Shown here in pieces: positions 5,954 to 44,519 of a stretch of 64,000 nt of DNA. The notes under the pieces were generated by a model. The model saw only the letters and a list, made by a program, of their open reading frames with translations, ran no database searches and had not been told where the DNA came from. The DNA is from Barnesiella viscericola DSM 18177. Its GTDB lineage: Bacteria > Bacteroidota > Bacteroidia > Bacteroidales > Barnesiellaceae. The DNA is taken from assembly GCF_000512915.1 (NCBI RefSeq), contig NZ_CP007034.1:1798001-1862000 (forward strand), written 5' to 3'. Position numbers and translations under genes: made by a program. Each line of letters starts with the position of its first letter. Positions within the stretch are counted from its first letter, which is position 1.

Positions 5954-5969
5954 TGTTTCACGTGAAACA
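5954..5969. other. parS: parS centromere-like site
   Basis: The exact 16-bp palindrome TGTTTCACGTGAAACA matches the conserved ParB-binding parS consensus. It directly abuts the mnmG stop codon (5970-5972) in the mnmG-apt gap. parS sites cluster near oriC, and this one is about 33 kb from the origin proposed here. I noticed no second copy, but did not search exhaustively. Confidence 0.9.
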
Positions 5970-28242: not shown

Positions 28243-30618
28243 TTAGTTGACTACCAGAATCTTGGTCACTACACCCGATTGTTTACCCGTAGTCGTCGAC
28301 GAGGCAAAGACCAGATAGACGCCGGTCTTCACCCGGTTACCCTTGCGGTCGCGACCGTCCCACGAAATCTGTCCACCGTTGGAATAGCTCTCGAAAAACA
28401 GGTTCCCGGCTACATCGGTAATCTTGACCAGACTGTTGTCCATCAAACCGGTAACCGATATCCACCCTTCATAGTCGGGACGCACCGGGTTGGGAAAAGC
28501 GTAAACGCTGCTGTAATCTTCCGAAGCCTGCACGGCATCGGAACGATAGGCAGCCAGTCCGTTGGTCGTTCCCACATAAGCCACACCCGTAACCGGATCG
28601 ACAACCACCTCGGTTACCCGATTCGAGGGTAACTGACTGTTCTCGGTCGTGAAATGTTCCAATATCTCCGAGCCGTCACTACTTACTACATAGAGCCCCG
28701 ATTCGGTAGTGCCTATCCATTTGCGATTGGCACCATCGACAAAGATGTCGGTAATCTCGATATTTTGCAGCAGATAGTCGGCATTGTCGGTACCGTCGTT
28801 ACGGGCTATTTTGATACGCGTACAACGAAAATTGTCGTTGAACACATTGTTGGGGTTTGTTATCACGATAGGTCCCGATGAAGTTCCTATCCATATCTGT
28901 CCGTTATTATCCTCGGCAATACAGGTATAGTAACTGGGATCGAATGTCTTATTGTCCTGGTCGGTAAATGAGTTGAAACTTTTTGTTTTGTCGTCGGCCG
29001 TCGTATTGTAAGTACCTTTGTCGTCAAATGCAAAAATCAATCCTCCCCAAGACCCTTTGACTACCCATTTAGCCGTGGAATGTTTAGGTATAAGCAACTT
29101 GGCATATTTATTATTCGCAATCTCGGGATAGTCAAACTGATACCAGTCATCTTTGGTAATCTCATCGGTAGATATCGATTGTTTTTCTCTAGGCAACATG
29201 CAGAGAGAAGGAGTACCCTTCGGTACCACCCACAAGTTCTTATCATCATCAAATTCCACACAAGGAACACTTATGGCCCAATTAAGCGTAAAAGGCGAAT
29301 TCAGATGCGTGTAATGTCCCACACACTCATTTCCCTTGATCTTATACATGCCTTCAAACCAAGTTCCCACATAAAACGTATTTGGGTCATCGGGATCAAA
29401 TGCCAGGTTATAGCTCGAACAGAGATATTTACCATGCTTGTTATTCACTAAAGGGGTTTCTCCCACATCAAGTACCGACCAATCGCCCTGGTCCAACACG
29501 CTTATGTGTGTCCTCACATACTGATTTTCGGTTCCTATGCGCGGTCCCGAATTGCTCACATACAATTTGTTATCATGAATAACCAGATTCCAAGGATCTG
29601 AGACATTCAGCGTATTGGCCAAAAAGGGTTCCTTCAACATGACTACCTGATTATTCTCCATTTTGAAATGACACAATCCCTGCTCACCCAATGCCCATAT
29701 GGACTTGTCTTTTTCATACGACGAAGTCTCTACATTGACCAGATACTCCGACTTATTCTGGAAATTGAAAACATCACCAATCTGCAAGGCACCATTCACA
29801 ATTTCGGGTTTACAGAAAGCTACATAGGCCAATCCTCTAAGAATAAAACTATCATAATATCTTTCAACACTACGAACGCCCATGTTCAAAGTACCTAACA
29901 AAGGTAACCCTTCGCTTTCCATATCATAGAAATAAAGAACACCATTTTGAGAATAGAACAAATACTTATCATTAAACGGCTCTAAATCATATATTGTATA
30001 TCCCGATACTCTACTTAAAATTTTCCAGTTTGCCAGATTATATTTAACCGCATCTTTATCGATGTAGTAGATAACTTCACCCGACAACATAAAACAATAT
30101 TTATTGCTCGCTCCTATCAGATTTACTTTTTGTCCATAATTATACGATTCACTCACCTCGTATTTTTCATCGTTCAAGACAACTATTCCAAAATCGGTTG
30201 CCAAATAAATATGATTGTCATAAAAGTTCACATCATTAATTGTCTTTGATGCAGTCATGATGGCATTCTTGATATCCGGTATGTTATAAACCTTTCCATC
30301 GTCGTACAGAATATCAATGTTCGCATTGGAATATATCACAACCAGATAATTTTTATCATAATTGTAATAGATATTCGATACCCCGGTATCACTCAGTTTA
30401 TTGTTTTTATTATAGCCCTCTAACTCCTCGGTAACTTTATCGAAACTGAACAGAGAAATACCCGACACGAAATAGACTCGCTCCTCGGTATCCACTACCT
30501 TGACAGGATCGCCTATCGAAGAGTAGATTTGCCAGTTACCCACGGCCAGTTGTGCCCGAATCAAACACAGGCAAGACAATGCGATGATAGTTATTAATGC
30601 TAATATCCTCTTTGACAT
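28243..30618 (-). CDS. porZ: PorZ-like beta-propeller protein with T9SS-type C-terminal domain
   Basis: 791 aa. A signal peptide (about 1-22) is followed by two beta-propeller domains with repeated Trp/Gly-rich blades (IWIGTSSGPIVITN; KWIGTTESGLYVVSSDG; VAYVGTTNGLAAY), and a type A sorting-like domain at the C-terminus (YAFPNPVRPDYEG... to the end, with GVYLV and VTKILVVN). In Porphyromonas gingivalis PorZ, of about the same size, is a surface component of the type IX attachment complex. Homologues also occur in species without a full T9SS. The N-terminal half is AT-richer. 9 nt after rdgB. Confidence 0.78.
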   Translation of the reverse strand: MSKRILALITIIALSCLCLIRAQLAVGNWQIYSSIGDPVKVVDTEERVYFVSGISLFSFDKVTEELEGYNKNNKLSDTGVSNIYYNYDKNYLVVIYSNANIDILYDDGKVYNIPDIKNAIMTASKTINDVNFYDNHIYLATDFGIVVLNDEKYEVSESYNYGQKVNLIGASNKYCFMLSGEVIYYIDKDAVKYNLANWKILSRVSGYTIYDLEPFNDKYLFYSQNGVLYFYDMESEGLPLLGTLNMGVRSVERYYDSFILRGLAYVAFCKPEIVNGALQIGDVFNFQNKSEYLVNVETSSYEKDKSIWALGEQGLCHFKMENNQVVMLKEPFLANTLNVSDPWNLVIHDNKLYVSNSGPRIGTENQYVRTHISVLDQGDWSVLDVGETPLVNNKHGKYLCSSYNLAFDPDDPNTFYVGTWFEGMYKIKGNECVGHYTHLNSPFTLNWAISVPCVEFDDDKNLWVVPKGTPSLCMLPREKQSISTDEITKDDWYQFDYPEIANNKYAKLLIPKHSTAKWVVKGSWGGLIFAFDDKGTYNTTADDKTKSFNSFTDQDNKTFDPSYYTCIAEDNNGQIWIGTSSGPIVITNPNNVFNDNFRCTRIKIARNDGTDNADYLLQNIEITDIFVDGANRKWIGTTESGLYVVSSDGSEILEHFTTENSQLPSNRVTEVVVDPVTGVAYVGTTNGLAAYRSDAVQASEDYSSVYAFPNPVRPDYEGWISVTGLMDNSLVKITDVAGNLFFESYSNGGQISWDGRDRKGNRVKTGVYLVFASSTTTGKQSGVVTKILVVN

Positions 30619-34724: not shown

Positions 34725-34780
34725 ACTACTACTCTTTTTCTATCTATGACTGTTATTTTTCAAGGTATTACTAAAAAAAG

Positions 34781-37633: not shown

Positions 37634-38623
37634 TTAAATTCCCAGCGAAGCCGATATGTCGAGCATGCGTCGTATGGGTTTGATGGCCTCTCGGGCTATG
37701 GCTTCGTCGACCACAATCTCAGGTAACTCGTATTTGAGGGTGTTGTACAACTTCTTCATCGTGTTCAACCGCATGAAGTTGCATTCGCTGCAACCGCAGG
37801 TGCTGTCGTCGGGAGGTGCCGGGATAAACTCCTTGTCGGGATTGTTTTTCTTCATCTCGTGCAGAATACCCGATTCGGTAGCCACAATGAAGCGTTTGCA
37901 ATCCGACTGGGTGGCGAAGCGCAACAAGGCTGCCGTCGAACCCACCTTGTCGGCAACAAGCAGAATATCGCGCTTGCACTCGGGGTGAGCCAGCAACAGG
38001 GCATCGGGATACTGTTTTTTCAACGCCACGATCTTCTCGAGCGAGAATTGCGAATGCACATGACAGGCACCGTCCCACAACAACATGTGGCGACCCGTCA
38101 CGCCGTTGATGTAATTTCCCAGGTTCTTGTCGGGACCGAATATGAGCTTTTCATCGGCCGGGAAGCTCTCGACAATCTGTTTGGCGTTCGACGAGGTGAC
38201 TACCACATCGGTGTGGGCCTTCACGGCAGCCGAGGTGTTCACATAGGAGATTACCTTGTAGCCGGGGTGCTGTTTCACAAACTCGGCAAAGGCATCGGCT
38301 GGACAACTGTCGGCCAACGAGCAACCGGCATTTAGGTCGGGTATCAACACTTTCTTGTCGGGACAGATGATCTTGGCCGTCTCGCCCATGAAGTGTACAC
38401 CGCAAAGCACCAGTATCGAAGCATCTGTCTTGGCCGCCCATTGGGCCAGAGCCAACGAATCGCCCACGTAATCGGCAATATCCTGTATATCGCCCGACTG
38501 GTAGTAGTGAGCCAGCACAACGGCATTCTTCTCTCGTTTCATCTTCTCGATTTCGGCTACCAAGTCTACACCCTCGGGAACGGGCATATCCACATAACCT
38601 TTTGAGATATCTACATCGAACAT
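37634..38623 (-). CDS. nadA: Quinolinate synthase A
   Basis: Condenses iminoaspartate with dihydroxyacetone phosphate to quinolinate; partner of NadB. 329 aa with three pseudo-repeated domains and the three cysteines expected to hold the [4Fe-4S] cluster: in [26 protein letters not shown] and [11 protein letters not shown] (the last with the CxxCxxC-like cluster motif). Also [20 protein letters not shown], the substrate-binding start. Leftward, transcribed away from the origin, and likely read through into leuS. Confidence 0.96.
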
Positions 38624-39122
38624 ATATATATTCCTTTTTATTTTTTAATTTAAAATCTTTATTGTTGATGATAATAGGGTGTTGATAGCAAGGATAACTT
38701 CTTGTTAAAAGAGTTGCTTTTTATCTTATCAACCTTTTGTTCGGGGTTATCGAGGTGTTGTCAACGACATTATATTTTTATAATGAGTAGCTTAACCTCT
38801 CTATCAACGCCTTGTTTACAATCTGCAAAGTTAATAACTTTATTCTATTTGTATGATTGATAAATAGATATTTTAAGGTGGATATAACAACTAAAAACTC
38901 GTGGCTTTATTATTTGCATTTTGAGGATAAGGGGTTGTATAGGTATAATATTTTGATTTCAAAATTTTGAACCTCTTTTTATACATCATTTTTATAACGT
39001 ATTATCCACACTTGTCCACACACTTATTCACGATGGTGTTTACAGGGTAGGGAATAAGTATGTAAATTGACTTTGTCGGCTGTATGTATTATCTTTGTCA
39101 ATGCTTGTAAAGAGAGTTGTTT
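38624..39122. other. oriC: Left half of the putative replication origin (oriC-A)
   Basis: 499 bp, AT-rich, no ORF. A perfect DnaA box TTATCCACA (39002-39010) is followed by close variants TTGTCCACA (39012-39020) and TTATTCACG (39024-39032), all rightward. Weaker TTATCAAC-type elements lie at 38680, 38726, 38758 and 38801. An AT-rich stretch (38940-39000) precedes the boxes. GC skew of the + strand changes sign here. It also holds a leftward nadA -7 (TAACTTTG, 38833-38826) and the promoter of the TrmH-like gene. Confidence 0.75.
39067..39097 (+). promoter_or_regulatory. Promoter of the TrmH-family gene
   Basis: TTG (39067-39069), 20 nt, TATCTTTG (39090-39097), with the ATG at 39123. Confidence 0.7.
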
Positions 39123-39653
39123 ATGAAGAAAAAGAGTATTCTTGACTTGCACAGAGTTTCGCAAGAGGAGTTTAAGCATCTTGAAAAGATACCGTTAGTG
39201 GTCGTACTGGACAACGTACGCAGCTTGAACAACATCGGGTCGGTATTCCGCACGGCAGATGCTTTCAAAGTCGACTGTATATACCTGTGCGGTATTACGG
39301 CCACTCCTCCTCATACCGATATACACAAGACCGCTCTGGGAGCCGAGGATAGCGTCGATTGGATTTATGAGTCAGATACCTGTACCGTTGTTGATAAGTT
39401 GTTGGCTGCCGGTTACGAGGTCTATGCCATCGAGCAGGTGGAGGGGAGTATCAGCCTCACCGACATCGAGTTGGATAAACATAAACGGTATGCCGTTGTC
39501 TTGGGTAACGAGGTGAAGGGTGTTCAACAGTCGGTGGTTGACAAGTGTACGGGAAGCATCGAGATACCCCAATTCGGTACCAAACACTCGTTGAATGTGT
39601 CGGTAACGGCCGGTCTGGTAATTTGGGATTTTTTCAAGCAGTTGGGATTATAG
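39123..39653 (+). CDS. TrmH/SpoU-family RNA 2'-O-methyltransferase
   Basis: 176 aa SPOUT-class methyltransferase, the single-domain form. The three family motifs are visible: LDNVRSLNNIGSVFRTADAF (motif 1, about 31-50), YAVVLGNEVKGVQQSVVDKC (motif 2) and IEIPQFGTKHSLNVSVTAGLVIWDF (motif 3). Probably methylates a tRNA or rRNA ribose; target not predictable. It lies between the two DnaA-box regions, and its stop overlaps the convergent DUF4294 stop by 6 nt. Confidence 0.9.
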   Translation: MKKKSILDLHRVSQEEFKHLEKIPLVVVLDNVRSLNNIGSVFRTADAFKVDCIYLCGITATPPHTDIHKTALGAEDSVDWIYESDTCTVVDKLLAAGYEVYAIEQVEGSISLTDIELDKHKRYAVVLGNEVKGVQQSVVDKCTGSIEIPQFGTKHSLNVSVTAGLVIWDFFKQLGL

Positions 39654-40250
39654 CGAACCCTGTTCGACCAGAATGCAGATGCGTTCGATAGTCTTGTCCT
39701 TGCCCTCGGGCTGCCAGTCGGTTTTGAGCGAAGCGCCGAACATCTTGCCAAAGAATTGCCAGAAGTTGGCTCTGAAACTGCCCAGAAATGCCTTTATCAA
39801 CTCATAGGACGACTGGTTACACTCTCTGTTAATCAACTTGATAAGCATCTTTCCCTGCGAAAGGGTAAACTTTTTCAACACCGGTTTATATTGGTGGAAA
39901 ACCTCTTTTTCCATGCGTTTCATGTGTTCCTCGCGGGCTTTGTCGTCGGGCAGAGTCTCCATATATTCATAAGTCTCGATAAAGATGGCATAAATCAGTT
40001 TGGCATAGGGTAGGGTCTTTTTCACATCGCGCACTGTCTTCCAGTAAAATTTCTCCTGCTTTTTGTTTTTGAATTTCTCGGGCGGGAATACATAGAAGGT
40101 ACGCAGGCCAATCATCGGTACCGTGTCGTTGTCGATGATGACCCGGTAGAAATGTTTATAGGCCGGGTGTTCTTCCTGGAATACCTGGGCCCGCAAACCC
40201 GGAACTGCCAGAAAGAGAAAAAGAAACAATATGAATAATCCTCTCTTCAT
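39648..40250 (-). CDS. DUF4294 domain protein, exported
   Basis: 200 aa from MKRGLFILF. A clear Sec signal peptide (about 1-21, ending GLRA) is followed by the DUF4294 region: YRVIIDNDTVPMIGLRTFYVFPPEKFKNKKQEKFYWKTVRDVKKTLPYAKLI, then basic helical segments. Family conserved in Bacteroidetes with no known function; periplasmic. The fact that it sits inside the origin region may be only positional. Overlaps the TrmH-like stop by 6 nt. Confidence 0.85.
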   Translation of the reverse strand: MKRGLFILFLFLFLAVPGLRAQVFQEEHPAYKHFYRVIIDNDTVPMIGLRTFYVFPPEKFKNKKQEKFYWKTVRDVKKTLPYAKLIYAIFIETYEYMETLPDDKAREEHMKRMEKEVFHQYKPVLKKFTLSQGKMLIKLINRECNQSSYELIKAFLGSFRANFWQFFGKMFGASLKTDWQPEGKDKTIERICILVEQGSL

Positions 40251-40690
40251 CGGGTACAAATGTAAACCATTCGATTTTCCGACGACTATTTTTTTGCAAT
40301 AATTATAATATTCACCGTTGTTGATAGCCTGTGTCGATAAATGGTAGATAAATGGTGAATAGATGTGTTTATTTTATGTGAATATATTAGTAATCAATAA
40401 TTTATTTTTTGTTGATAAACTCAGATTCATTTACGTTTTTTAGTTTGAAATCTTGTGGATAAGCTGTTGGTATAGATTTGATGAGAGTTTTTTTCTTCTA
40501 TTATTTTATCAGGAGTGGACAAAGTGTGAATAAAATTGTTTAATAGATAATTAAAACAGTGATATATAGAATAATTATAAAATATTCACAGCATGTGAAT
40601 AACGATAAAAAACGATATAGATTTTCATAAAATTCATGGTTGGATAATCCATAAACCCTACCTTTGTAGCATCGAAAAAGAATTTTTGTT
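40251..40690. other. oriC: Right half of the putative replication origin (oriC-B)
   Basis: 440 bp, strongly AT-rich, no ORF. Perfect DnaA boxes in leftward orientation: TGTGGATAA (40454-40462), TGTGAATAA (40525-40533) and TGTGAATAA (40594-40602). Near matches: TGTTGATAA (40410-40418), TGTCGATAA (40332-40340), TGTGAATAT (40377-40385), and one opposed ATATTCACA (40582-40590). From here rightward the + strand is G-rich. The radical SAM promoter lies at the right edge. Confidence 0.75.
40640..40666 (+). promoter_or_regulatory. Promoter of the radical SAM gene
   Basis: TACCTTTG at 40659-40666, 25 nt before the ATG; a TTG lies at 40640-40642, 16 nt upstream, closer than the usual 19-20. Confidence 0.5.
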
Positions 40691-41470
40691 ATGCAGACGG
40701 TATTATTTCATGAAATTATTTACGGGCCGGTGCACAGCCGTCGTCTGGGTATATCGTTGGGTGTCAACTTGCTGCCTACCGACGGCAAGATCTGTTCGTT
40801 TGATTGTGTCTATTGCGAGTGCGGATACAATGCACAGGGGGCGGGCAAGAGCGGTTTGCCCTCGGCCGACCAGGTGGAAGAGGTGTTGAAAACCCGTTTA
40901 CAGGCCATGCACGCTGCGGGCGAGAAGCTCGATGTGATTACCTTTGCCGGGAATGGCGAGCCTACGTTGCACCCTCAGTTCGAGAAGATCATAGATACCA
41001 CGCTCTACCTGCGCGACCACTACTATCCCGAAGCTAAAATCAGCGTGCTCTCCAATGCCACCCGCATTCATGACGAGTCTGTATTCCGGGCATTGAACCG
41101 CGTAGACAACAATATACTCAAACTCGATTCGCTCCGCCCCGAGACGGTGGCTTTGATTGATCAACCCAACGACCCTCACTATGATGTGAACCGGGTAGTG
41201 TGCGACTTGCGGCGCTTCTCTGGCAATGTGATTGTGCAGACCATGTTCCTGCGGGGCTGGCACAACGGACAACGCATCGACAATACCGTCGAGGAGGAGC
41301 TCTCGCCCTGGTTGGAGGCATTACAATACATTTCGCCGCGTTCGGTCATGATTTATACCATCGACCGCAAAACGCCCGAAGAGGCGCTCGAAAAGGTCTC
41401 TCGCGAAGAGTTGGAGCAGATAGCCTCCCGGGTGCGCGAGTTGGGTATCGCCGTTTCGGTTTCGGCCTGA
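40691..41470 (+). CDS. Radical SAM protein
   Basis: 259 aa. The [4Fe-4S]/SAM motif is CSFDCVYCECG (CX3CX2C, about residues 35-45), preceded by GPVHSRRLGISLGVNLLP. A GEPT segment (FAGNGEPTLHP, about 88-98) contacts SAM. The layout matches the COG0731-type family found in many anaerobes; the substrate is unknown. A single gene, closed by a long shared terminator. Confidence 0.88.
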   Translation: MQTVLFHEIIYGPVHSRRLGISLGVNLLPTDGKICSFDCVYCECGYNAQGAGKSGLPSADQVEEVLKTRLQAMHAAGEKLDVITFAGNGEPTLHPQFEKIIDTTLYLRDHYYPEAKISVLSNATRIHDESVFRALNRVDNNILKLDSLRPETVALIDQPNDPHYDVNRVVCDLRRFSGNVIVQTMFLRGWHNGQRIDNTVEEELSPWLEALQYISPRSVMIYTIDRKTPEEALEKVSREELEQIASRVRELGIAVSVSA

Positions 41471-41567: not shown

Positions 41568-44519
41568 TTATTTCACAACCACCTTTTTGCTTTGTGTCGA
41601 GCTTGCGTTATGAACTTTTACTATATAGATACCTTGGTTAAGGTCGAGGTCGCGTTGGTTGATTACACGGCCTTCCCACACGAGGCTGCCGCTGGTGGTG
41701 TAGACTTGGGCCTGGGCCTCTTCGGCTTCGATTTTAAGTACACCGGGTTGGCTCCATACCTTCACGCCGTTGGTCTCTGTCTCGTCGATGCCCGATGCGT
41801 CGGCAAATTCGGCCGTTACTACCGAAGCCATCTTCACTACAAACGAATTGTTGCTTATGGCTACACCGTTGACCCATGCGTTTCTCAAAGCGTAACCTTC
41901 GTCGGGCAGGGCGGTGACAGTCACAGTCGTGTTCTTGGCCACCTTGTCGCCCGAGTTCACCACCTGGTTGTCGGCGTTGCGCAGTTCCAGTGAACCGTTC
42001 TCCGAGGGTTCGATGGTGATGTAGGCCACGTCGCAACCGCTACCGTCGCCATCGATAGAGGGTTTCCAGCCTTTTTTCGAGGCGATGGAGGTCTCGCTGG
42101 TTTCGGCTTCGTTAGCCTTGTCGCTGATACCGGCTATGAAGAGATTGACATTTGTCGGTGTGGTGGCACAAACCGGCAGGTGGTAGAAAAGGTCGTTGAG
42201 TTCACAGGCTGTCATGCCGTTGTCGGCACATTGGAGGTAATTGAGTTTCGTGTTGCTTGACAGGTCGATGGGGTCGAGCTGGTTGCCGTCGCAGAAGAGA
42301 CGTTCGAGCTCGGTGTTGGCCGAGAGGTCGAGCGTGGTGAGCTGGTTGTTCGAGCAGGTGAGCCGCACCAGCTGGGTGTTGTGGTTCACGTTGAGGGTGG
42401 TCAATCCTATGCTGCTGCATTGTAACTCTTGCAAGTTGGTGAGCATGCTCACGTCGATCGAGCCCAGTTGCGAGTTGTTTTGCACGTCGAGCAACATCAG
42501 TTGGGTATTGTTGGACAGGTTGATGGACGAGAGTGAGTTATTCTTGACAACAGCCTCTTCGAGTTCGGGATTGTGCGACAGGTCGAGCGAAGCCAATTCG
42601 CAGTTGTAACAGGTGAGCGAGAAGAGCTTCGGGTTGTTCGAGAGGTCGAGCGTACCGATTTCGTTATAGGAGCAGTTGAGTTTGGTCAGTTCGGGGTTGT
42701 TCGAGAGGTCGAGTGTGGTGATGTAGTTCCAATAGCAGTCGAGAGTAGCCAGTGTAGCGTTGTGGGTTACGTCGAGCGAAGTCAGTTCGTTTTTCGAGCA
42801 GTCGAAGTAGTCGATTAAACCGCTTATTTTTACGGTTGTCCCTTTGGAATTACCTTTGAGGCGTGCAATCGATTCGTTGTCGATAATGATGGTCTCTATC
42901 TCGCCGTTACCCCAGTCGATCTCCACTTCGGTTTCGGGGTCGATACCGCTTATGCCAAACGAGAGGGGAGTGTTGTTCTTTACCCCTATGGCAATGTAGT
43001 TGTTGTCGGCTATGGGGACGAATACGGCTGCCACGGTTACATTTTCGGTAGCGACGAATATGTTACCGTTGATGCGTTGGCCGTTTACTTCGTAGTAGCG
43101 TACCTGGTAACCTTCGGCCGTCGAGGCGGTGATATAGGTAGGTACACCCGATTCGAGCGTGTTGTTTTCCACAGCGTGCAGTTCGTGTGAAACCAGGTCG
43201 GGTTGCGAGAGGGTGAAGGTACCCATCTCCGAGGGTATGAGGGTAGCCGTTACCGTGCCGCAGGTGGCGCTGCCGTCGCCCGTTACATCGACAGTCCATT
43301 TCAATTCGGTAGCAAGCGAGGTGTCGCTGGTCTCGGCGTTGCTGCCTTCGAGCCAGAGATTGGTGTTGGGACTGGTCTTTTCCAGACCTGAGAGTGTCTG
43401 GTACATGTAGTTGAGGCTGCACGGGGTCATACCGGCATTGTTGCGAATATCGATGGTGTTGATACCCTGGTTGTAGTAGAAATCGAGAAAGGTGAAGCGG
43501 TTGTTTTGTCCCCAGAATTTTTGCAGATAGTTGTTCTGGCTCAAATCGATTTCGGTCAGTTGGTTGTTACCGCATTTGAGCGATTTCAATCGGGGCATGT
43601 TCGATACGTTCAACTTGGTCAGCTGGTTACCGTCGCACGACAGATTGGTGATGTTGCCGTTGGCCGAGAGGTCGAGGCTCTTTATCTGGTTGTTGCTGCA
43701 CACCAGGTCCATCAGCTCCGTATTGATAAATACGTTCAGCTCGGTCAGGTAGTTGTCGTTGCAGTAGAGTTTTTCGAGTTTTTCGTTTTTGGTCAGGTCG
43801 AGCGATTGAATATAGTTGTAACGCACATCGAGCTGTTGCAGTTCGGGCAGGTTGGTCACATCGATCTCCATCAGGGAGTTACCCTCCAAGTTGACGTAAT
43901 AGAGGTTGGGGCAACCCGAGAGGTCGATGGCACTCAAATCGTTGTTATAGGCCGTAATCGATTCCAGAGCACCGCCTTCGCTGGGGAGTAAGATGGTGGT
44001 GATGGCACCCCGGTCGTCGGGATCAGATGAGTCGGTTTTATCGTGCCGGCAGTCGAGGATTCTCAGTTTTTTGTGTTCCAACAGGTTCAGGAACATCAGC
44101 TTGGGATTGTTGTAGCAGTTGAGGGTTTCGAGATTCAGTGCACCCGAAATATCGAGATTGGTACGTTCTATCTCGTTGTTGTAGCAATCGAGGGTGGTCA
44201 ATTCGGGTTCGTTGACAATCGAAATCGAGGTAATGTGCGATTCGGAGCAGTCGAACGAACGCATGGGCGAGAGTATCCGTATCGTGTCACCCACCTGGGT
44301 GCCGCTTATGTTACGTGTAATCATACCGTCTACGATGTATTCTTTTTGAACACTGTCACCCCAATCGACGATTACTTTACCGTCCGATGCCACCGGGGTG
44401 GGGTAGAGCGTGATGTTGCTACCCGGCTCGAGCGAGGTGGTAAGTTTGATTTCACTCCATGCCGTCGATACGCCCGAGGCGAGGCACAAAGCAAACAAGA
44501 AAGTTGTAAATTTTTTCAT
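41568..44519 (-). CDS. Secreted leucine-rich-repeat protein, internally duplicated, with T9SS-type C-terminal domain
   Basis: 983 aa with a signal peptide (1-about 20). It is two copies of one ~480-aa unit: a DWG-start domain (52 and 535), an LRR array with LxxLxCxxNxLxxLDLSxN repeats of 21-22 residues (about 100-350 and 570-770), a TSxTSxA linker (398 and 808), and an InlB-like strand domain (about 430-505 and 830-905). The final ~70 residues (QAQVYTTSGSLVWEG, GIYIVKVH, KKVVVK) fit a type A sorting domain. Probably a surface binding protein. Downstream of the TPR-HTH regulator on the same strand. Confidence 0.85.
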   Translation of the reverse strand: MKKFTTFLFALCLASGVSTAWSEIKLTTSLEPGSNITLYPTPVASDGKVIVDWGDSVQKEYIVDGMITRNISGTQVGDTIRILSPMRSFDCSESHITSISIVNEPELTTLDCYNNEIERTNLDISGALNLETLNCYNNPKLMFLNLLEHKKLRILDCRHDKTDSSDPDDRGAITTILLPSEGGALESITAYNNDLSAIDLSGCPNLYYVNLEGNSLMEIDVTNLPELQQLDVRYNYIQSLDLTKNEKLEKLYCNDNYLTELNVFINTELMDLVCSNNQIKSLDLSANGNITNLSCDGNQLTKLNVSNMPRLKSLKCGNNQLTEIDLSQNNYLQKFWGQNNRFTFLDFYYNQGINTIDIRNNAGMTPCSLNYMYQTLSGLEKTSPNTNLWLEGSNAETSDTSLATELKWTVDVTGDGSATCGTVTATLIPSEMGTFTLSQPDLVSHELHAVENNTLESGVPTYITASTAEGYQVRYYEVNGQRINGNIFVATENVTVAAVFVPIADNNYIAIGVKNNTPLSFGISGIDPETEVEIDWGNGEIETIIIDNESIARLKGNSKGTTVKISGLIDYFDCSKNELTSLDVTHNATLATLDCYWNYITTLDLSNNPELTKLNCSYNEIGTLDLSNNPKLFSLTCYNCELASLDLSHNPELEEAVVKNNSLSSINLSNNTQLMLLDVQNNSQLGSIDVSMLTNLQELQCSSIGLTTLNVNHNTQLVRLTCSNNQLTTLDLSANTELERLFCDGNQLDPIDLSSNTKLNYLQCADNGMTACELNDLFYHLPVCATTPTNVNLFIAGISDKANEAETSETSIASKKGWKPSIDGDGSGCDVAYITIEPSENGSLELRNADNQVVNSGDKVAKNTTVTVTALPDEGYALRNAWVNGVAISNNSFVVKMASVVTAEFADASGIDETETNGVKVWSQPGVLKIEAEEAQAQVYTTSGSLVWEGRVINQRDLDLNQGIYIVKVHNASSTQSKKVVVK

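Follow-up and report, generated by a model that had tools for sequence, protein, structure and literature searches.

The locus lies in a 64,000-nucleotide stretch of the Barnesiella viscericola DSM 18177 chromosome (hereafter the window), which spans bases 1,798,001-1,862,000 of a 3,076,856-bp genome assembled as one contig. Two gene-free gaps enclose two small genes here. The left gap, IGR1 (38,624-39,122; 29% G+C), separates nadA (37,634-38,623, minus strand; PF02445, E=2.5e-120) from a gene for a SpoU/TrmH-type RNA methyltransferase (39,123-39,653, plus strand; PF00588, E=1.6e-32). The right gap, IGR2 (40,251-40,690; 26% G+C), separates a DUF4294 gene (39,648-40,250, minus strand; PF14127, E=2.6e-60) from a radical-SAM gene (40,691-41,470, plus strand; PF04055, E=1.3e-9). 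Each gap is flanked by divergent genes, and the spacing between the two is about 1.1 kb. Both carry DnaA boxes, and the coordinates that the first-pass annotation had given for two AT-rich, box-bearing stretches around a pair of small genes proved exact. Rfam reported no structured RNA at either gap, its only matches in the window being two tRNAs. The wider surroundings include a PorZ-like type IX secretion protein gene (28,243-30,618) on one side and, on the other, a gene for a large leucine-rich-repeat / InlB B-repeat surface-type protein (41,568-44,519).

The region from 38.5 to 40.6 kb contains ten sites that differ from TTATCCACA at no more than one position; those at 39,002 (plus strand) and 40,454 (minus strand) are exact. 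Eight of the ten fall in the gaps, and the other two are inside nadA (38,586) and the methyltransferase gene (39,389). In IGR1, three tandem boxes point rightward on the plus strand at 39,002-39,032 (starts 39,002, 39,012 and 39,024, with 0, 1 and 2 mismatches, respectively), and the left-gap alignment places a tandem array near this position across families, with its letters altered. IGR2 holds an array of one orientation on the minus strand at 40,319-40,602, with starts at 40,319, 40,332, 40,377, 40,410, 40,454, 40,525 and 40,594. The densest one-strand cluster of the motif TATNNACA has 8 sites per 450 bp here (7 of them in the right gap), as compared with a maximum of 3 in 1.2 Mb of sampled genome. 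Clusters of one-mismatch boxes reach 5 per 450 bp on the right and 4 on the left (one inside nadA), again against a maximum of 3 in the genome sample. The clustering of DnaA boxes at both gaps is beyond chance.

A DUF4294 gene was present in 52 of the 60 genomes searched, our own included. Thirty DUF4294 loci were fetched, nine from the genus (B. viscericola among them) and 21 from outside it. The order nadA, gap, methyltransferase gene, DUF4294 gene is present in all nine genus members, where the adjacency of DUF4294 follows from the retrieval of loci by that family, and the radical-SAM gene comes next in seven. For L069 and L071, in which the radical-SAM gene was not found adjacent, the right-hand limit of IGR2 was assigned manually. 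Summed over these nine genomes, which are related and so do not provide independent counts, boxes with at most one mismatch number 13 on the plus strand and 2 on the minus strand in the left gap (shuffle means 0.5 and 0.9), and 4 and 29 in the right gap (shuffle means 0.3 and 1.5). The boxes of the two halves therefore face each other, as had been claimed from the single genome. On the minus strand of the nine right gaps, TATNNACA occurs 62 times (4 to 9 per genome) against 6.6 ± 2.5 in shuffles, and all 44 pairs of these sites no more than 45 bp apart are separated by 11-13, 22-24, 33-35 or 44-45 bp. Across the genus, box positions are constant while their letters drift, the pattern expected of a binding-site array under selection. 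Outside the genus, nadA and the methyltransferase gene were present in the 1.5-kb flanks of 3 of the 21 DUF4294 loci (L062, L066 and L083), so DUF4294 alone is no origin marker.

GC skew was sampled in 60 stretches of 20 kb, which together with the window cover 41% of the chromosome. Of the 30 stretches between 0.31 and 1.80 Mb, 27 had negative skew, and of the 30 on the other arc (1.86 Mb across position zero to 0.28 Mb), 28 had positive skew, a 30/30 split that was placed at the observed turning points. Interpolated from this 41%, the cumulative minimum lies at 1,836 kb and the maximum at 272 kb, almost opposite, with arcs of 1.56 and 1.51 Mb between them. Within the window, cumulative GC skew bottoms out at base 38,657, inside the AT-rich end of the left gap; for keto skew, the window's minimum is at 34,732, outside that gap. 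The skew minimum thus bears out the earlier proposal of a chromosomal origin at this place (1,836,624-1,838,690 in genome coordinates), and a check for a cumulative minimum elsewhere, set beforehand, returned this one on the 41% of the chromosome covered.

The first-pass annotation had also described the skew as independent of gene strand. The switch is indeed chromosome-wide, but gene strand contributes to skew besides origin position, so this description is only partly right. To the left of the origin, plus-strand skew is -0.115 over plus-strand genes and -0.098 over minus-strand genes; to the right, the values are +0.016 and +0.091, and third codon positions of the plus-strand genes there still have a negative skew (-0.098). 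An example of G-richness that had been placed at 58.8 kb did not hold, since the skew of the window's last 6 kb (58-64 kb) is near zero. As a separate observation on gene orientation, 18 of the 28 ORFs of at least 150 aa to the left of the origin (window positions 1-38,700) are on the plus strand, that is, against the fork, and genes near the origin are consequently not mainly co-oriented with replication.

The genome contains a single perfect copy of parS, TGTTTCACGTGAAACA, at window positions 5,954-5,969. A phosphoribosyltransferase gene and gidA/mnmG flank it, and its distance to the origin is 33 kb; gidA is the classic oriC neighbor in E. coli. When up to two mismatches are allowed, six other parS-like places appear in the genome, each with two mismatches, and at this threshold the reversed pattern used as a control matches 22 places versus 7 for the real pattern. 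The dnaA gene begins the contig (Bac_DnaA at C1:690-1175), about 1.24 Mb from the origin around the circle. A dnaA-proximal origin was considered and rejected, the first 20 kb of the contig having five scattered one-mismatch boxes and no cluster. In PMC10197239, the origins of a gut consortium of 12 strains, two of them Bacteroidetes, were placed by this parS consensus, GC skew and coverage, and were noted not to coincide systematically with dnaA.

Eight methyltransferase query sequences yielded 80 named Bacteroidales-type loci, the best 80 of at least 591, and so a set biased to close relatives. In 32 of these 80 best-scoring loci, nadA is divergently adjacent to the methyltransferase gene; L110, with only 213 bp upstream, is too short to show nadA. 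Skew was compared at loci with no less than 5 kb of sequence on either side, which included 25 of the 32 nadA-adjacent loci and 31 of the 48 others. The right-minus-left difference averaged 0.089 with nadA adjacent (22/25 positive; 13/25 negative on the left and positive on the right) and 0.028 without it (20/31 and 9/31), and was larger with nadA adjacent than without (Mann-Whitney p=0.005). A further search matched 172 of 299 genomes. Among 21 relatives hand-picked from the best-scoring matches, 19 have nadA adjoining the methyltransferase gene; in G111, which scored about equally high and was inspected separately, nadA is not beside it. Two genomes from other families have a skew switch at the locus. 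In G165, which has the full gene order, skew is negative at 3 of 4 distances to the left of the methyltransferase gene (+0.008 at -600 kb) and positive at 5 of 5 sampled distances to the right, and in G124, from a third family and with nadA adjacent, it is negative at 5 of 5 places on the left and positive at 4 of 5 on the right. The trmH-like gene alone was tried as an origin marker and rejected, as the single-contig genomes G111, G193, G240, G242 and G250 had no clean switch at it (G193 and G242 were negative to the left of the gene at 3 of 4 and 4 of 4 places, and mixed or near zero to the right). In these five genomes, where nadA adjacency is absent, the origin is probably at another address.

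We are highly confident in predicting that the B. viscericola locus is the chromosome's DnaA-dependent oriC, because of the skew minimum, the box enrichment and its strand segregation, the lone perfect parS nearby, and the skew switch at the same nadA/trmH gap in two other families (G165 and G124). It could be argued instead that there is no origin here, and that two AT-rich divergent promoter regions, chance box matches and a local change of skew combine to imitate one; both gaps do lie between divergent genes, and divergent promoters are AT-rich anyway. With a skew that is chromosome-wide and a strand-segregated box enrichment far above shuffles over nine genomes, in addition to parS and the switch in the other families, we regard this explanation as extremely improbable.

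Box counts among the relatives were made for each gap. In the 32 nadA-adjacent loci, the left gaps hold 51 near-consensus boxes versus 5.9 expected (29 plus and 22 minus versus 2.3 and 3.6), and the 18 right gaps among these loci that could be measured hold 9 versus 1.6. Over 34 measured right gaps, TATNNACA occurs 45 times on the minus strand versus 9.3 and 19 times on the plus strand versus 5.9. Six loci (L095, L146, L232, L233, L234 and L238, of which L146 is titled Phocaeicola) contribute 29 of the 45 minus-strand sites, and among the 12 measured loci titled Bacteroides, Mediterranea or Phocaeicola, 10 carry no more than one such site. The phased one-strand array of the right gap is strong in the genus and patchy elsewhere. 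We consider it likely that the left gap, between nadA and the trmH-like gene, is a conserved oriC core. IGR1 is probably the older part of the origin, and IGR2, which faces it, seems to be an addition made by the lineage.

Scoring of duplex stability on 50-mers by the nearest-neighbor method identified an AT-rich, easily melted element adjoining the predicted DnaA boxes. The two gaps contain three of the window's four least stable 50-mers. The second least stable of all (38,623-38,672), with only 0.017% of genome-sample windows less stable, marks a candidate DNA-unwinding tract at 38,624-38,672, and we think it reasonably probable that opening takes place at this nadA edge of IGR1. Strands could alternatively open in IGR2, with IGR1 as the accessory half: the least stable (40,535-40,584) and third least stable (40,368-40,417) 50-mers of the window are both there, with the phased array adjoining. 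However, the GC-skew minimum is at 38,657, and IGR2 boxes are patchy outside the genus whereas IGR1 boxes are widespread, which makes opening in IGR2 improbable in our estimation.

A conserved minus-strand element, GATGATNATANNCTGTTGATAG as read on the plus strand, occupies 38,667-38,688 beside the candidate tract. It comprises a degenerate box, CTATCAACA, a 4-bp spacer and trio-like repeats directed toward the AT-rich tract, and a possible second, weaker tandem box, TTATCCTTG (38,689-38,697, minus strand; three mismatches to the consensus), adjoins the CTATCAACA box. An alignment of 26 left gaps from several families has the same succession on the minus strand toward nadA, namely CTATCAACA box, 4-bp spacer, ATTATCATC-like triplets and AT-rich tract. 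With up to 4 mismatches in 19 positions, GATGATNATANNCTGTTGATAG was found in 42 of 57 left gaps of relatives (deduplicated from 60) versus 3 of 1140 shuffles, a count that is partly circular because the consensus came from the 26 aligned gaps, most or all of which are among the 57. At up to three mismatches, the element has one match in its own genome. Its use as a genome-wide origin finder was rejected, since among 13 single-contig genomes it picked the nadA/trmH gap only in our own and in G165; in the remaining 11 it had matches with two to three mismatches or none, which are not readable as origins.

The arrangement invites comparison with the basal unwinding system, which consists of a DnaA box, a spacer and DnaA-trios (PMC8287927, PMC6669920). 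The criterion applied for such a system was that three or more 3'-NAN-5' triplets occur no further than 16 bp from a DnaA box. Points of likeness are the degenerate and possibly tandem box, the short spacer, the mid-A triplets and the AT-rich tract. In contrast to the known system, the triplets here are 3'-TAG-5' and not 3'-GAT-5', and a strict scan lacked strand preference. That scan (box with at most two mismatches, spacer of 3-5, at least three NTN) matched 23 of the 57 left gaps on the expected strand and 25 of the 57 on the other, with shuffle means of 6.1 and 9.6. In the window, three triplets follow CTATCAACA after 4 bp, in a scan that matches both strands alike over the 57 gaps. DnaA-trios called by the strict scan were rejected as a strand-specific signal and kept as a hint only, and for the same reason we treat the element as a candidate. 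In E. coli, the side on which the DUE lies gives the reference for an R1-type box. By that comparison, the orientation of the box relative to the tract here would match a DUE-proximal R1-type box as described in PMC5043019.

Chromosomal position, box enrichment, strand segregation, genus conservation and low duplex stability were all obtained by computation, and from them we infer DnaA binding, the opening site, looping and a role for IGR2. Taken as a whole, we lean slightly toward a model in which a DnaA-dependent oriC opens at IGR1, with IGR2 looped in and raising or timing initiation. DnaA would bind IGR1, where the reversed degenerate boxes at the nadA edge would steer strand opening to the AT-rich tract (about 38,624-38,672). 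DnaA would also coat IGR2, a phased array of one orientation, and the two complexes, with their boxes facing, would touch by looping out both small genes. The IGR2 complex would then raise or time initiation at IGR1. Looping around these two genes may be possible by analogy with B. subtilis and H. pylori, which loop out dnaA.

The original label of a bipartite origin holds for the layout, in that two clusters are present and are kept in the genus, and we find it plausible. IGR1 alone looks complete and is the more widely conserved half, however, so cooperation between IGR1 and IGR2 is something that we only infer, and we put its chances at about even. Not far behind the bipartite model is a one-part origin, in which IGR1 alone would be oriC and IGR2 an accessory DnaA-binding cluster with a role in DnaA titration or in control of the DUF4294 and radical-SAM promoters. 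In IGR1 there are an AT-rich tract, adjoining reversed boxes and outward boxes at the far end; the gap is partly alignable across families, most Bacteroides-like relatives retain it with few boxes in their IGR2, and the window's GC-skew minimum is inside it. Yet in the genus the IGR2 boxes are more numerous and better phased than those of IGR1, and IGR2 lies only 1.1 kb off and faces IGR1, a closeness and an orientation that titration sites would not need. We therefore hold the one-part origin to be a serious but lesser possibility. A more specific form of the bipartite model, an origin unconnected with the position of dnaA in which an old Bacteroidales core at nadA/trmH was joined by one lineage's helically phased, facing array beyond two unrelated genes and two opposed DnaA filaments meet by looping these genes out, falls a little short of an even chance in our judgment.

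In B. subtilis and H. pylori, which have bipartite origins, dnaA lies between the halves (PMC8235120, PMC5043019) and is reported to be looped out as the clusters join (PMC8235120). The B. viscericola locus is like these origins in having two DnaA-box clusters at gene-length spacing and, in one or both clusters, an AT-rich stretch that is a candidate for unwinding; unlike them, it has SpoU and DUF4294 genes between the halves and dnaA about 1.24 Mb away. For Prevotella intermedia and other Bacteroidetes, a predicted oriC far from dnaA is described in PMC4755523 (DoriC/Ori-Finder). The predicted oriC of P. intermedia, compared here by that description, likewise combines a skew transition with DnaA boxes at a distance from dnaA, but it is a single 476-bp locus, whereas B. 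viscericola has a second, facing array 1.1 kb away. It had been suggested that the layout was undescribed for the group. Remoteness of the origin from dnaA in Bacteroidetes is in fact already known (PMC4755523, PMC10197239). Among the matches listed by full-text searches of the open literature, there was neither a nadA-linked origin nor a pair of facing arrays in the group, and no experimental dissection of a Bacteroidota origin.

Numbering from dnaA is common among genomes of the group (our own contig, Prevotella intermedia and Porphyromonas gingivalis), and dnaA is not the origin here. A recurring address at the nadA/trmH-like gap, with a recognizable core element, would let peak-to-trough growth methods locate the origin in many draft genomes. 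It would likewise reveal whether a bipartite origin can evolve when dnaA is not located between the two halves.

One further feature of IGR1 concerns transcription. The genus alignment of the left gap contains TAACTTTG on the minus strand at 38,826-38,833, which we take to be the -7 element of a likely nadA promoter, after the Bacteroidales promoter motif. The block around this putative promoter (38,826-38,900) is nearly invariant across the genus. From its position, nadA would have a leader of about 200 nt that crosses the candidate unwinding tract, and nadA transcription could affect origin opening.
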